Assembly: GCA_027214255.1 (NCBI GenBank)
Contig: JAPWHL010000014.1
Location: 1 to 64,000, forward strand
Source: Roseovarius aestuarii
GTDB lineage: Bacteria > Pseudomonadota > Alphaproteobacteria > Rhodobacterales > Rhodobacteraceae
Direction: 5' to 3'
DNA: 64,000 nucleotides
The position numbers were made by a program, and so were the translations under genes. Positions 50,607-53,671 of the stretch are shown here, piece after piece. Numbering within the stretch: position 1 is the stretch's first letter; every line of letters begins with the position of its first letter. A model generated the notes under the pieces. The model saw only the letters and a list, made by a program, of their open reading frames with translations, made no database searches and was not told the DNA's origin.

Positions 50607-50918
50607 ATGATCGTCTATGGGCTAAAAAACTGCGATACGTGCCGTAAGGTATTGAAGTTAATTCCTAATGCGGCGCTGCAAGACGTGCGCGCTGATGGAG
50701 TTCCTGCTGCGACGCTGGAAGCTGCTTTTGAGCAATTTGGTGAAAAATTACTCAATACGCGCTCCACAACATGGCGCGGGTTGGATGCGGATGCCCGCGC
50801 CGCGCCGCCGCTGGACCTGATCAGGGCGCATCCCGCGCTGATGAAGCGGCCGCTGATTGATGTGGATGGTGTGCTGTATCTGGGGTGGGATGCCAGCGTG
50901 CAAAAAGCACTGACCTAA
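50607..50918 (+). CDS. ArsC/Spx family thioredoxin-fold protein
   Basis: This 103-aa protein begins IVYGLKNCDTCRKVLKLI with a CxxC motif at the start of helix 1, has LLNTRSTTWRGLD, and ends around MKRPLIDVDGVLYLGWD. This pattern belongs to the YffB-like branch of the ArsC family, many of which are not true arsenate reductases. No arsenic genes surround it. AGGAGGGCGAG precedes the ATG. It ends 3 bp from the convergent doxX gene. Confidence 0.8.
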   Translation: MIVYGLKNCDTCRKVLKLIPNAALQDVRADGVPAATLEAAFEQFGEKLLNTRSTTWRGLDADARAAPPLDLIRAHPALMKRPLIDVDGVLYLGWDASVQKALT

Positions 50919-50921
50919 GGG

Positions 50922-51488
50922 TTATGTGTGTGCCTGTGGTGCCAATCGCCGCGTCAGGAGATGATCCAGCGACAAGGGTCCGGCACCACGCACGACAATA
51001 ACCAACAGTAAAAAGACCCAGAGAGCGCGTTGATCCATGATCACCGACTCTGGAATTTTGTCGAACCATGCGCCGAGGGTGGCGGGTTCATCCTTGACGC
51101 CGTGCCCAAACAGGTCGGTCAGGGTCTGCACCGCGACAAAGCCGATCATGCCAAGAGCAGACAGTCGCGTTAGCAGCCCGATGACAATCAAGAGGGGCAG
51201 GATGAATTCTGCCCATGTTCCAGCCAGAACGACAAGCGTATGAAAGATGCTCAATTGGCTGGCGTCATAACCGACGGCTTCCATCACGCGCGGGAAAATT
51301 TGGGCGTAGGCCCCCAAGGACGGGCTGAACAAACCGAAAAAACCGTCGCCCAGCTTGGTCAGGCCCGAGGCCCAGAAATACAACAGGAGAATTGCGGCAA
51401 AAAGGAACCGGGCGGTTGTGCCCAGCAATCCGGTGCAGCTATCTATCCGGGAAAACACTGCGTTGTGCAGGGATATAAGGCGCGTCAT
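50922..51488 (-). CDS. DoxX family membrane protein
   Basis: This 188-aa protein has about four membrane spans and DoxX features (RFLFAAILLLYFWASGLTKL, WAEFILPLLIVIGLLTRLSALGM). It is the last gene of the bufferin-type operon and overlaps bufC by ATGA. DoxX proteins are frequent companions of DUF692/DUF2063 gene pairs. A redox or membrane-associated role is assumed but unproven. Confidence 0.85.
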   Translation of the reverse strand: MTRLISLHNAVFSRIDSCTGLLGTTARFLFAAILLLYFWASGLTKLGDGFFGLFSPSLGAYAQIFPRVMEAVGYDASQLSIFHTLVVLAGTWAEFILPLLIVIGLLTRLSALGMIGFVAVQTLTDLFGHGVKDEPATLGAWFDKIPESVIMDQRALWVFLLLVIVVRGAGPLSLDHLLTRRLAPQAHT

Positions 51489-52246
51489 GGGGTGTCTCCG
51501 GTAGCAATTGCATGAATGGCCCGGCCTGCGATCAGCGCGCCGAGAGTGGTGGTCAGATCAAAATCTGTAATCCCGACGCTGGCGTGGTCATGGGCGTCGC
51601 CAAAGGTGTTTCCTTGCCTCAAGGCGTCAACAAAGGTTGCACCACCGGGCGGAAGCGATGTCATGAGCGGATCATATTCGGGCCGGGTGATCAGAACGTC
51701 TTGTGGTCCGCCTGCTGGCTGAGGGGCGCCGGGCTCCATATTGAAGGTCCAGATATCGTGGATCGGCCAACGTGAACGTACAAGTCGCAGCGCCGGAGCC
51801 AGTGTCATCCGCGCGCCCATCAATGTTTCCGGAGTAATGCTTTGCAGTATCTCAGGTTCAACCGGTGATCCATCCGCGGCATGATAGGATTCGCGCAAAG
51901 CCTGCTCTAATCGCGCGACGTCAGGCAGATAGGCCAGATGGGCCAACGGGGCAAATTTCTCAAGAAACGCGGGCAGGGTCGCGCCATATTGGCTGATCAT
52001 TGGGGTGTCGGGCGGGTTCTGTCGCAAAAACACGCCCATCACCGCCTTGAAGTTTTCGTCGCCTATCAGCTTGCGAATAACGGGAAAGCTGACCTCAAGT
52101 GCCTCGGTCAGGCTGACGGCGACGTTGTTGCGATACACTGAAAACCGCGCGCCCGCAGGGTGGCCCCGACCGTCGCTTAGGCCTTCGGGGGTGGGCAGCG
52201 CGCTGTTTAACAAGGCCTTACGGAAATGGGTTTGATCCACGCTCAT
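51485..52246 (-). CDS. bufC: DUF2063 family protein, BufC/HvfC-type partner of the MNIO enzyme
   Basis: This 253-aa protein has the N-terminal DUF2063 helical domain with [32 protein letters not shown], then a beta-rich C-terminal part. Members act as the precursor-recruiting partner of DUF692 oxidases. The ATG at 52246 overlaps the bufB stop as ATGA, and doxX follows with the same overlap. It lies within the minus-strand order bufA-bufB-bufC-doxX. Confidence 0.85.
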
Positions 52247-53106
52247 GGCCGGGCCGGGATGTGCGACAGGGCATTGGCGGCGCGCACAGTTTCCGCCTGT
52301 AGGACCGGCCAGTCGGGCACGTCTGCGTCCCACTCGATCAGCAAGGGACGCGGGCCGGACCTCGCCAGTGTATAGTCCAGCAAGGCCCAGACAGGATCGG
52401 CTACTTCGCGCCCGTGGCTGTCAATCAGCAGGGGTGCACCGTGATCATCGGCGTCTTCATCATGTCCGCCCAGATGGATCTCGCCGACTTTGTCCAGTGG
52501 GAAGGCATCGATGTAGGCCCGAGGGTCCAGCCCCAGATTGGTGGCCGAAATGAACACGTTATTCACATCCAACAGCAATCCACAGCCGGTGCGCTGTGAC
52601 AGCTCGTCTAGAAAGGCGGTTTCTTCCATCGTGCTTTCGTCAAACGCCAGATAGCTGGACGGGTTCTCCAGTAACATGGGGCGGCCGACTGCGTTTTGAA
52701 CCTGATCAATATGATCGCATACGCGTGTCAGCGTCGCAGGCGTGTAGGGCAGGGGAAGCAGATCGTTCAGATATTGGCTGTCATGGGTGGACCAAGCCAG
52801 ATGTTCGGAGAAACTGGCGGGGTTCAGCCAATTACACAGATGTTTCAGGCGCGACAGGTGGTCCGCGTTCAAGGCACCTTCGCCCCCGATGCTAAGGCCG
52901 ACACCATGTACGGACATGGCAAATTTTTCTGACAGATGGCGCAGTTGCGCCAAAGGGCGGCCACCGTCGCCCATATAGTTTTCAGCGTGGATTTCCAGCC
53001 ATGTCACCGGGGTTGCATCCGCCATGATCTGTGCGAAATGCTGTGGCTTGTACCCGACGCCGGGCGCGGCAGGCAGGGTTGTGAAACGATGGGTGGAATC
53101 CAGCAT
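52243..53106 (-). CDS. bufB: DUF692 multinuclear nonheme iron oxidase (BufB-type)
   Basis: This 287-aa TIM-barrel enzyme has the family segments [63 protein letters not shown] and [13 protein letters not shown]. The conserved His, Glu and Asp residues in these segments bind the iron cluster. MNIO enzymes install heterocycles on cysteine residues of RiPP precursors; in bufferins the product is a thiooxazole. GGAGG lies 6 bases before the ATG. A terminator separates it from the precursor gene. Confidence 0.9.
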
Positions 53107-53134
53107 GACAGGCCTCCAAGCGGTTTGGTGGTCA

Positions 53135-53172
53135 CAAAAAAGGGTGCGCGGGATCGTGTCCGCGCACCCTTG
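53135..53172 (-). terminator. Intrinsic terminator/attenuator between bufA and bufB
   Basis: AAGGGTGCGCG (53140-53150) pairs perfectly with CGCGCACCCTT (53161-53171), and on the minus strand the stem runs into TTTTTT. It lies 13 bp after the bufA-type stop and 29 bp before the bufB start, so it should end most transcripts after the precursor gene and let a minority read through. Confidence 0.85.
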
Positions 53173-53184
53173 GTATAGCATGGT

Positions 53185-53472
53185 TTATGCGGGCAGGTCG
53201 CGGTCCAGCTCTTCCAGTGAGCCCATACGATCACCGGGCAGCTCCATTTCGGTGCAGGTGCCTGCGTCTACCAACGTCCAGGCGTTGCCTTGATAATCGA
53301 CAGTGGATGTACCTGCGCATGTGGTGCCTGCGCCGGCCTTGCAATCGTTTTCGCCAGCCAGCGACACGCCATAGCATTTCTCCTGACCTGCGGCGGATGC
53401 CGTGGTGGTTTGTGCGGCCAATGCTGCGGTCATTGCGCCTGCGATTGCGGCTGTTTTCATGAACGTGGACAT
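53185..53472 (-). CDS. bufA: Bufferin precursor, BufA1/DUF2282 family
   Basis: This 95-aa protein has a signal peptide (residues 1-27, ending TTTASA) and a small secreted domain with exactly four cysteines, C33, C44, C52 and C73, in the DUF2282 pattern [13 protein letters not shown]...[18 protein letters not shown]...GTC. In characterised bufferins the central cysteines are modified by the MNIO enzyme and the peptide binds copper in the periplasm. GGGAGAG precedes the ATG at 53472. It heads the operon and is followed by a strong terminator. Metal binding here is inferred from the family. Confidence 0.88.
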
Positions 53473-53671
53473 ATCGGGTCTCTCCCTTTGGATTTCAAAG
53501 TGTATCGCCTGAGTTGGCGCGCCGTTGTGGCGCGGTTGGCAGCGATGGATCAACCATAGCGCCAAGGCAGAGTATCGCGCCAATCACGGATGCGTCAGAC
53601 ACGCCACCGTCAGAGGATGTCAGATGGCGCTATCCACGCAGTCATTGATTTTAAACGAATTTATTGAACCT

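Follow-up and report, generated by a model that had tools for sequence, protein, structure and literature searches.

A bufferin operon of Roseovarius aestuarii with a predicted tandem CenR site at its promoter

Introduction

In Caulobacter vibrioides the operon CC3254-3257 encodes, in this order, a DUF2282, a DUF692, a DUF2063 and a DoxX protein. It is controlled by sigma-F from a promoter of the form GTAACC-N16-CGAA, the gene for the anti-sigma factor CC3252 adjoins it, and operons of this type are reported to respond to chromate and cadmium (PMC3511200). In the Buf1 peptide of Caulobacter, copper-binding thiooxazoles have been reported. Here we analyse an operon with the same gene set and gene order, bufABC-doxX, in a stretch of 64,000 nucleotides of Roseovarius aestuarii DNA (contig JAPWHL010000014.1, positions 1 to 64,000; hereafter the window), together with the promoter region in front of it. 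Where C. vibrioides has sigma-F and CC3252, the window has no NrsF gene and no promoter element for an extracytoplasmic function (ECF) sigma factor, and instead a tandem site of the type described for the response regulator CenR.

Several other operons are homologous or related to this one. SMb20530-20527 of Sinorhizobium meliloti, which is under RpoE7/EcfR7 control (PMC6180224), and gigPABT of Cupriavidus metallidurans, which lies beside rpoQ-rsqA, responds to gold and copper and is assumed by the authors to depend on RpoQ (PMC10304878), contain DUF692 and DUF2063 genes as in the window but, unlike the window operon, are linked to an ECF sigma factor. A related DoxX/DUF2063 cluster of Haemophilus influenzae is assigned to RpoE2 and responds to hypochlorite (PMC7907618). 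The related GIG operon of Legionella pneumophila is also responsive to gold and copper, and an influence of RpoS is suggested for it (PMC5413113). A landscape survey likewise records Buf1 clusters with genes for a sigma factor and for NrsF (PMC12452194). The described operons are thus mostly under a dedicated ECF sigma factor, and a family-wide CenR site would place marine roseobacters under another form of control.

In Rhodobacter sphaeroides the CenR motif is TGA-N8-TGA, and 28 of 31 reported sites lie directly upstream of the -35 element and co-directional with it (Lakey et al. 2022, PMC9275681). The window promoter resembles this CenKR regulon in the sequence of the site, in its position directly 5' of the -35 element and in having an envelope-directed target; it differs in having two sites in tandem, as the sites in Table 1 of that paper are single. 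We read the locus, with a probability of about 0.8, as a Buf1 bufferin operon under a sigma70-like promoter that would be activated by CenR at two adjacent sites. The genes are of a known kind; CenR-type control is the new part, and it is well supported by sequence. We found no literature linking CenR with DUF692 or bufferins with Roseobacter, in a search that lacked most subscription journals, and in the main-text parts of the CenKR paper copper is mentioned only as a grid material (PMC9275681).

Results

A conserved tandem box in front of bufA

The operon and its promoter region comprise the following features.

53612-53584, minus strand: tandem CenR-type box, TGACGGTGGCGTGTCTGACGCATCCGTGA, predicted from sequence, with half-sites that begin at 53612 and 53597
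53583-53553, minus strand: predicted promoter, with -35 element TTGGCG (53583-53578), -10 element TATGGT (53558-53553) and a 19-bp spacer
53472-53185, minus strand: bufA, DUF2282 (Buf1) precursor of 95 amino acids; PF10048, 82 bits (cut-off 22.4), residues 31-78
53106-52243, minus strand: bufB, MNIO (DUF692) bufferin maturase of 287 amino acids; NF050167 MNIO_BufB, 370 bits (cut-off 310)
52246-51485, minus strand: bufC, DUF2063 partner protein of 253 amino acids; PF09836, 80.4 bits (cut-off 27.2)
51488-50922, minus strand: doxX, DoxX membrane protein of 188 amino acids; PF07681, 32.2 bits (cut-off 23.6)

The gene identities, the conservation of the box, its match to the published CenR motif and the presence of a CenR ortholog are read directly from the sequence. 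The box consists of TNACR-N4-YGTGA twice and lies just 5' of the predicted -35 element; an alternative -10 element, CTATGG, would have an 18-bp spacer. We compared 107 distinct bufA upstream regions, taken from the 80 closest BufB relatives and from loci of the same genus. When aligned, these regions show one marked conserved block, ACG-N4-CGTG-N4-AC(G/A)-N4-CGTGA, which is present in 100 of the 107 at three or fewer mismatches (exact in 40). Conserved T/A positions 26-31 bp downstream of the box fit a -10 element.

A search of 248 genomes of the family Rhodobacteraceae, sampled at one per genus, found the exact degenerate box pattern in 88 of them, against three matches for a reversed control. 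Among the box sites fetched, 27 of 30 are buf loci; in locus L183 the site lies between bufA and bufB. The genome of R. aestuarii itself contains 20 matches at two or fewer mismatches, against 17 for the reversed control, and only the bufA site is exact. Five further box sites (L325, L327, L328, L330 and L332) lie inside reading frames, look like chance matches and were set aside.

We also used a sequence model built from 72 boxes, 30 of which come from the same 248-genome sample. It matches 107 of the 248 genomes at E ≤ 0.02, including 3 of the 70 that lack DUF2282. The remaining 178 contain DUF2282, and NrsF scores over its cut-off in 28 of those. By the model, the tandem box is present in 1 of the 28 genomes with NrsF and in 99 of the 150 without (Fisher test with phylogeny ignored, p = 1.9e-10); by the exact pattern the counts are 1/28 and 80/150 (p = 1.9e-7, same test). 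The sole NrsF-positive genome with a tandem box is a fragmented assembly of 370 contigs. This count excludes four genomes, G168, G237, G273 and G348. In 86 genomes box and DUF2282 match are confirmed to lie no more than 600 bp apart, and in G237 and G273 they are non-adjacent; with other loci and the window added to the 86, adjacency is confirmed for 90 of the 99 counted genomes. G168 does have a box at bufA (L324), and its inclusion would bring the 99 to 100. Among the DUF2282-positive, NrsF-negative genomes without a counted model match, promoters were examined in 39 of 51, and 17 of these carry a box at two or fewer mismatches, where shuffled sequences lead one to expect none.

That the bufA site is the only exact match in its own genome would also suit autoregulation, with BufC binding the box. 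Pfam describes DUF2063 as a putative DNA-binding domain, and a reference title records an older proposal for PF09836. We regard this explanation as extremely unlikely: BufC is equally present where the tandem box is missing (L113, L123, L125 and L126), the box also occurs in the 3 of 70 genomes without DUF2282, and DUF2063 proteins are now assigned in the literature available to us as partner proteins of ribosomally synthesised and post-translationally modified peptides.

The box matches the CenR motif

Three of the sites in Table 1 of the R. sphaeroides study, TGACGCGGGCGTGAA, TGACGCAGCTGTGAA and TTACATTCGCGTGAT (PMC9275681), fit the half-box TNACR-N4-YGTGA. In the window, TGA-N8-TGA occurs at 53597-53584, directly upstream of the predicted -35 element. 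We built a CenR matrix from the 31 sites of PMC9275681, which is independent of the boxes found here. Among 127,972 positions of the window, its top score falls on the half-site at 53597; the half-site at 53612 ranks 43rd. In 99 of 100 box promoters the best match of the matrix is the half-box. None of 300 column-permuted matrices equals this result (mean 1%, best 48%).

The genome of locus L329, which lacks DUF2282, has a box in front of a gene for an OmpR-family response regulator with receiver and Trans_reg_C domains. The ortholog of this regulator in R. aestuarii is 87% identical and is the single match at E ≤ 1e-90 in the genome (G000, contig C77, 128626-129315). Its residues D11-D13, D51 and D56 match published CenR positions, provided that translation begins at MGQ. 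We therefore identified the regulator as the CenR ortholog, from residue positions and the form of its promoter site rather than from an alignment with RSP_0847. At E ≤ 1e-90, matches to it occur in 38 of the 41 family genomes searched. Upstream of all 13 cenR orthologs examined (12 loci and L329) lies the sequence ACAC-N5-CGTGA, in one case with 14 of 15 letters alike; the site mapped in front of R. sphaeroides cenR has the same form (PMC9275681), and the element is the best matrix match in 8 of the 13 promoters. A half-box search around eight response regulators found none in front of them; L237, one of the eight, is the CenR ortholog, whose weaker site escaped the half-box pattern.

The box in front of a cenR ortholog fits control by CenR, as does one that precedes an L,D-transpeptidase gene (YkuD, 64.1 bits), an L,D-transpeptidase being a CenR target in Table 1 of the R. 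sphaeroides study (PMC9275681). Genome G133 (5.6 Mb), one of the three of the 41 in which no CenR ortholog reaches E ≤ 1e-90, has DUF2282 yet lacks both the box and NrsF. The joint absence of CenR and box fits the same reading, but this is a single case.

A number of observations weigh against control by CenR. The orientation of the box is ambiguous: as would be expected of a near-palindrome, the sense strand has the higher score in only 62 of 100 box promoters. Five of the 13 cenR promoters have their best matrix match elsewhere than at ACAC-N5-CGTGA, and the cenR promoter of R. aestuarii itself scores 8.4 bits, just below the 95th percentile of shuffled sequences (8.6). Seven of the 107 distinct promoters have no tandem box, and neither do 22 of the 39 promoters searched at two or fewer mismatches. 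Adjacency of box and DUF2282 is unconfirmed in nine of the 99 counted genomes (G121, G128, G186, G232, G242, G260, G272, G319 and G365). The association with absence of NrsF was tested without regard to phylogeny, and the model used is partly circular, given that 30 of its 72 boxes stem from the tested genomes. The main-text parts of the CenKR paper name no buf gene, and the buf operon is not in their Table 1, the strain's own buf content not having been looked up (PMC9275681). Finally, the motif might be common to CenR and another OmpR-type regulator related to it.

A more specific rival is a dedicated metal-responsive regulator of the CopR/CusR kind, through which copper would control the operon directly. 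The CusR/CopR box is TGACA-N4-TGTCA, and the geometry of the box found here resembles it. The near confinement of the tandem form to buf loci (27 of the 30 above) is also what would be expected of a dedicated regulator. A regulator of this type was our first candidate; it was dropped because no protein of the genome reaches the 279-bit cut-off of TIGR01387, the best match (181 bits) looking PhoB-like by its neighbours. The 31 mapped CenR sites moreover predict the half-sites almost perfectly, and cenR orthologs have the same kind of unit upstream. We thus consider a metal-responsive regulator quite unlikely and favour CenR.

Control by CenR would proceed as follows. CenR would bind the two adjacent TNACR-N4-YGTGA sites, which end beside the -35 element, and activate the sigma70-like promoter, so that the output of the operon would track the state of the envelope via CenKR instead of an ECF sigma factor. 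Our best reading places the bufferin operon of the Rhodobacteraceae in the CenKR envelope regulon, the window locus having no ECF/NrsF pair. If this is true, a copper-binding peptide would be under a regulator of cell envelope and division that is itself essential. The first-pass annotation of this DNA had called the control of the operon unexplained. This was fair from the genes alone, as no ECF sigma factor or metal regulator gene adjoins the operon, just as the annotation had stated; the strongly conserved promoter box, for its part, points to CenR. The box (53584-53612) had been missed, as had the hairpin between bufA and bufB described below (53140-53171).

Two more boxes lie away from buf genes, and the one at L214 looks meaningful, like those before the L,D-transpeptidase and cenR genes. 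At L214 (7216-9423) a tandem box precedes genes for a secreted Asp/Met-rich protein, a cytochrome b561 and a molybdopterin oxidoreductase (119 bits), and the bufA promoter of the same genome has no box; the Caulobacter sigma-F regulon also contains a molybdopterin oxidoreductase (PMC3511200). At L323 (2765-3354) a CenR-type box lies about 100 bp upstream of a gene for a 148-residue protein with an export signal, judged by eye, and no Pfam match.

Promoters with sigma-F and NrsF

The operon might also be driven, as in Caulobacter, by an ECF sigma factor whose gene lies elsewhere in the genome, in which case the box would be secondary. The genome has 11 Sigma70_r4_2 matches, nine of them over the cut-off, one of them (L033) resembles the sigma-F-like factor of Primorskyibacter at E ≤ 1e-5, and ECF control is common elsewhere. 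As against this, the genome has no match to PF06532 (NrsF), and there is no GTAAC element in front of bufA. Of the 28 genomes that have NrsF as well as DUF2282, 19 supplied a set of 20 buf promoters. GTAAC-N15-20-CG(A/T) occurs within 250 bp in 17 of these 20 NrsF-type promoters (0.55 expected) but in only 6 of the 100 box promoters (2.8 expected). A distant ECF sigma factor is thus very unlikely to be the main control of the window operon, and CenR remains the preferred activator.

Sigma-F-like and NrsF-like genes are both present in the fetched stretch at 16 of the 20 NrsF-type loci; they went unseen in 79 of the 80 loci L043-L122, in the stretches compared. The tandem box and NrsF nevertheless do not mark two alternative regulators. 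This idea was ruled out by the NrsF-type promoters, which, like the window promoter, carry a CenR-like half-site just upstream of the -35 element, one where the window has two, and next to a GTAAC element that the window lacks. When the 45 bp preceding GTAAC are scanned for the strongest CenR-like half-site, it ends 3-5 bp short of GTAAC in 15 of the 20 promoters, a count that averages 1.9 and peaks at 6 in 200 shuffles. Three further NrsF-type promoters have a CenR-like half-site about 15 bp from GTAAC. The four loci without a tandem box named above (L113, L123, L125 and L126) show a half-site in the same arrangement, 4 bp before GTAAC, and in L113 the sigma-F and NrsF genes are divergent from bufA, inside a longer thrS-bufA gap. 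In the other long thrS-bufA gaps listed, no buf regulator was seen. Among eight loci from other alphaproteobacterial families, six have GTAAC and none has a CenR-like site beside it (best, 3.1 bits); L005 (12.9 bits) and L012 (9.4 bits) have a CenR-like site elsewhere upstream.

The simplest order of change would run from ECF control alone, through ECF control with one CenR site, to two CenR sites without an ECF sigma factor. It is possible, at somewhat less than even odds, that in the Rhodobacteraceae the essential CenKR system replaced an ECF sigma factor as the control of the operon via such a single-half-site state, which NrsF-bearing genera still show, with copper damage to the envelope, and not copper itself, as the cue. 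The ECF pair would have been lost while the second CenR site and the sigma70-like promoter took over. If so, the bufferin would be deployed within envelope maintenance. The two natural promoter types, if correctly understood, would make it possible to study how a regulon changes hands.

The operon and its product

The cluster is an ordinary Buf1 bufferin operon by its family models, its gene order and the residues conserved with the structure 3BWW. The four genes lie on the minus strand and the last three overlap (4 nt for bufB/bufC and 4 nt for bufC/doxX), as the first-pass annotation had described; coordinates and Pfam and NCBIfam matches agree with its account of a Buf1 bufferin-type operon, and the precursor did match the DUF2282 profile (82 bits against 22.4), so that the failed match which it had named as grounds for refutation did not occur. 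BufB also matches PF05114 (342.6 bits) and stays below the cut-offs of the HvfB, ApyH, ChrH and MbnB models. Neither BufC (42.3 bits against HvfC, cut-off 142) nor DoxX (29 bits against HvfX, cut-off 80) reaches the cut-off of the corresponding Hvf model in NCBIfam. BufA scores 19.8 bits with the BufA2 model NF050166, below the cut-off of 60, and the cluster is therefore Buf1 and not Buf2. A profile search of the whole genome found a single DUF2282 match. An alignment of BufB with 3BWW shows His, Glu and Asp positions common to both, some of which are probably iron ligands. For BufC, a sequence search found no relative of solved structure.

By analogy with characterised bufferins, BufB and BufC would modify cysteines of exported BufA, and the resulting peptide would bind copper; a copper-handling product is plausible for a member of this family. 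The peptide might instead be unmodified, or serve for another metal or stress, the operon being a general envelope or oxidative stress factor. The CenR regulon, which includes dsbC, msrA and other genes for the envelope and for repair (PMC9275681), would suit such a role, and so would the reported responses of related operons to chromate and cadmium, to gold and copper, and to hypochlorite. However, the MNIO residues shared with 3BWW are intact, and the copper-binding thiooxazoles reported for the Caulobacter Buf1 peptide also speak for a modified product. We consider a general stress role unlikely, and less so than the other rivals discussed above.

Precursor, hairpin and neighbouring genes

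The cysteines of BufA are C33, C44, C52 and C73, the pattern given in the first-pass annotation, and are spaced 10/7/20. The annotation had suspected unusual loop lengths; this proved unfounded, as the same spacing is found in all 102 distinct precursors compared, window included and truncated L161 excluded. Loops at loci of other families are mostly 10/7/20 as well; the exceptions are L003 and L004 (10/8/20) and L010 (10/6/20). Judged by eye from the sequence alone, the N-terminus looks like a signal peptide. The C-terminal tail (window 53185-53230), which lies outside the DUF2282 match, has the pattern GSL-x-x-L-x-RDLP, kept in 96 of the 102 precursors. It may be a recognition element, and that BufC is what recognises it is a guess.

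Two further features of the minus strand flank bufA.

53171-53140, minus strand: terminator-like hairpin followed by T6 in the bufA-bufB gap; minimum free energy -29.5 kcal/mol, z -3.94
55673-53727, minus strand: thrS, the upstream neighbour, which anchors the locus and lies outside the system

Of 106 distinct bufA-bufB gaps, 90 contain a helix of at least 8 pairs, compared with 20% of mononucleotide shuffles; a strict test for a stem followed by T4 is passed by 16 of the 106 and by none of the shuffled sequences. The hairpin is probably a brake that yields more precursor than enzyme.

A tblastn comparison of 121 loci, with the window itself counted and some loci present via two routes, found thrS upstream of bufA in 113 and a complete bufABC-doxX behind thrS in 109. 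From two of the loci outside the thrS count, L123 and L125, the gene is missing over 12 kb; the others are short or cut. As the order thrS-bufABC-doxX is kept across loci, the grouping of the genes is beyond chance. Rfam and tRNA scans of the 64-kb window gave no matches.

An ArsC-related gene (window 50607-50918) converges on doxX and is found in the same place in most loci compared. Pairs of DUF2282 precursor genes in tandem occur at L218 (4309-4948) and in genome G126 (contig C18, 55492-55990).

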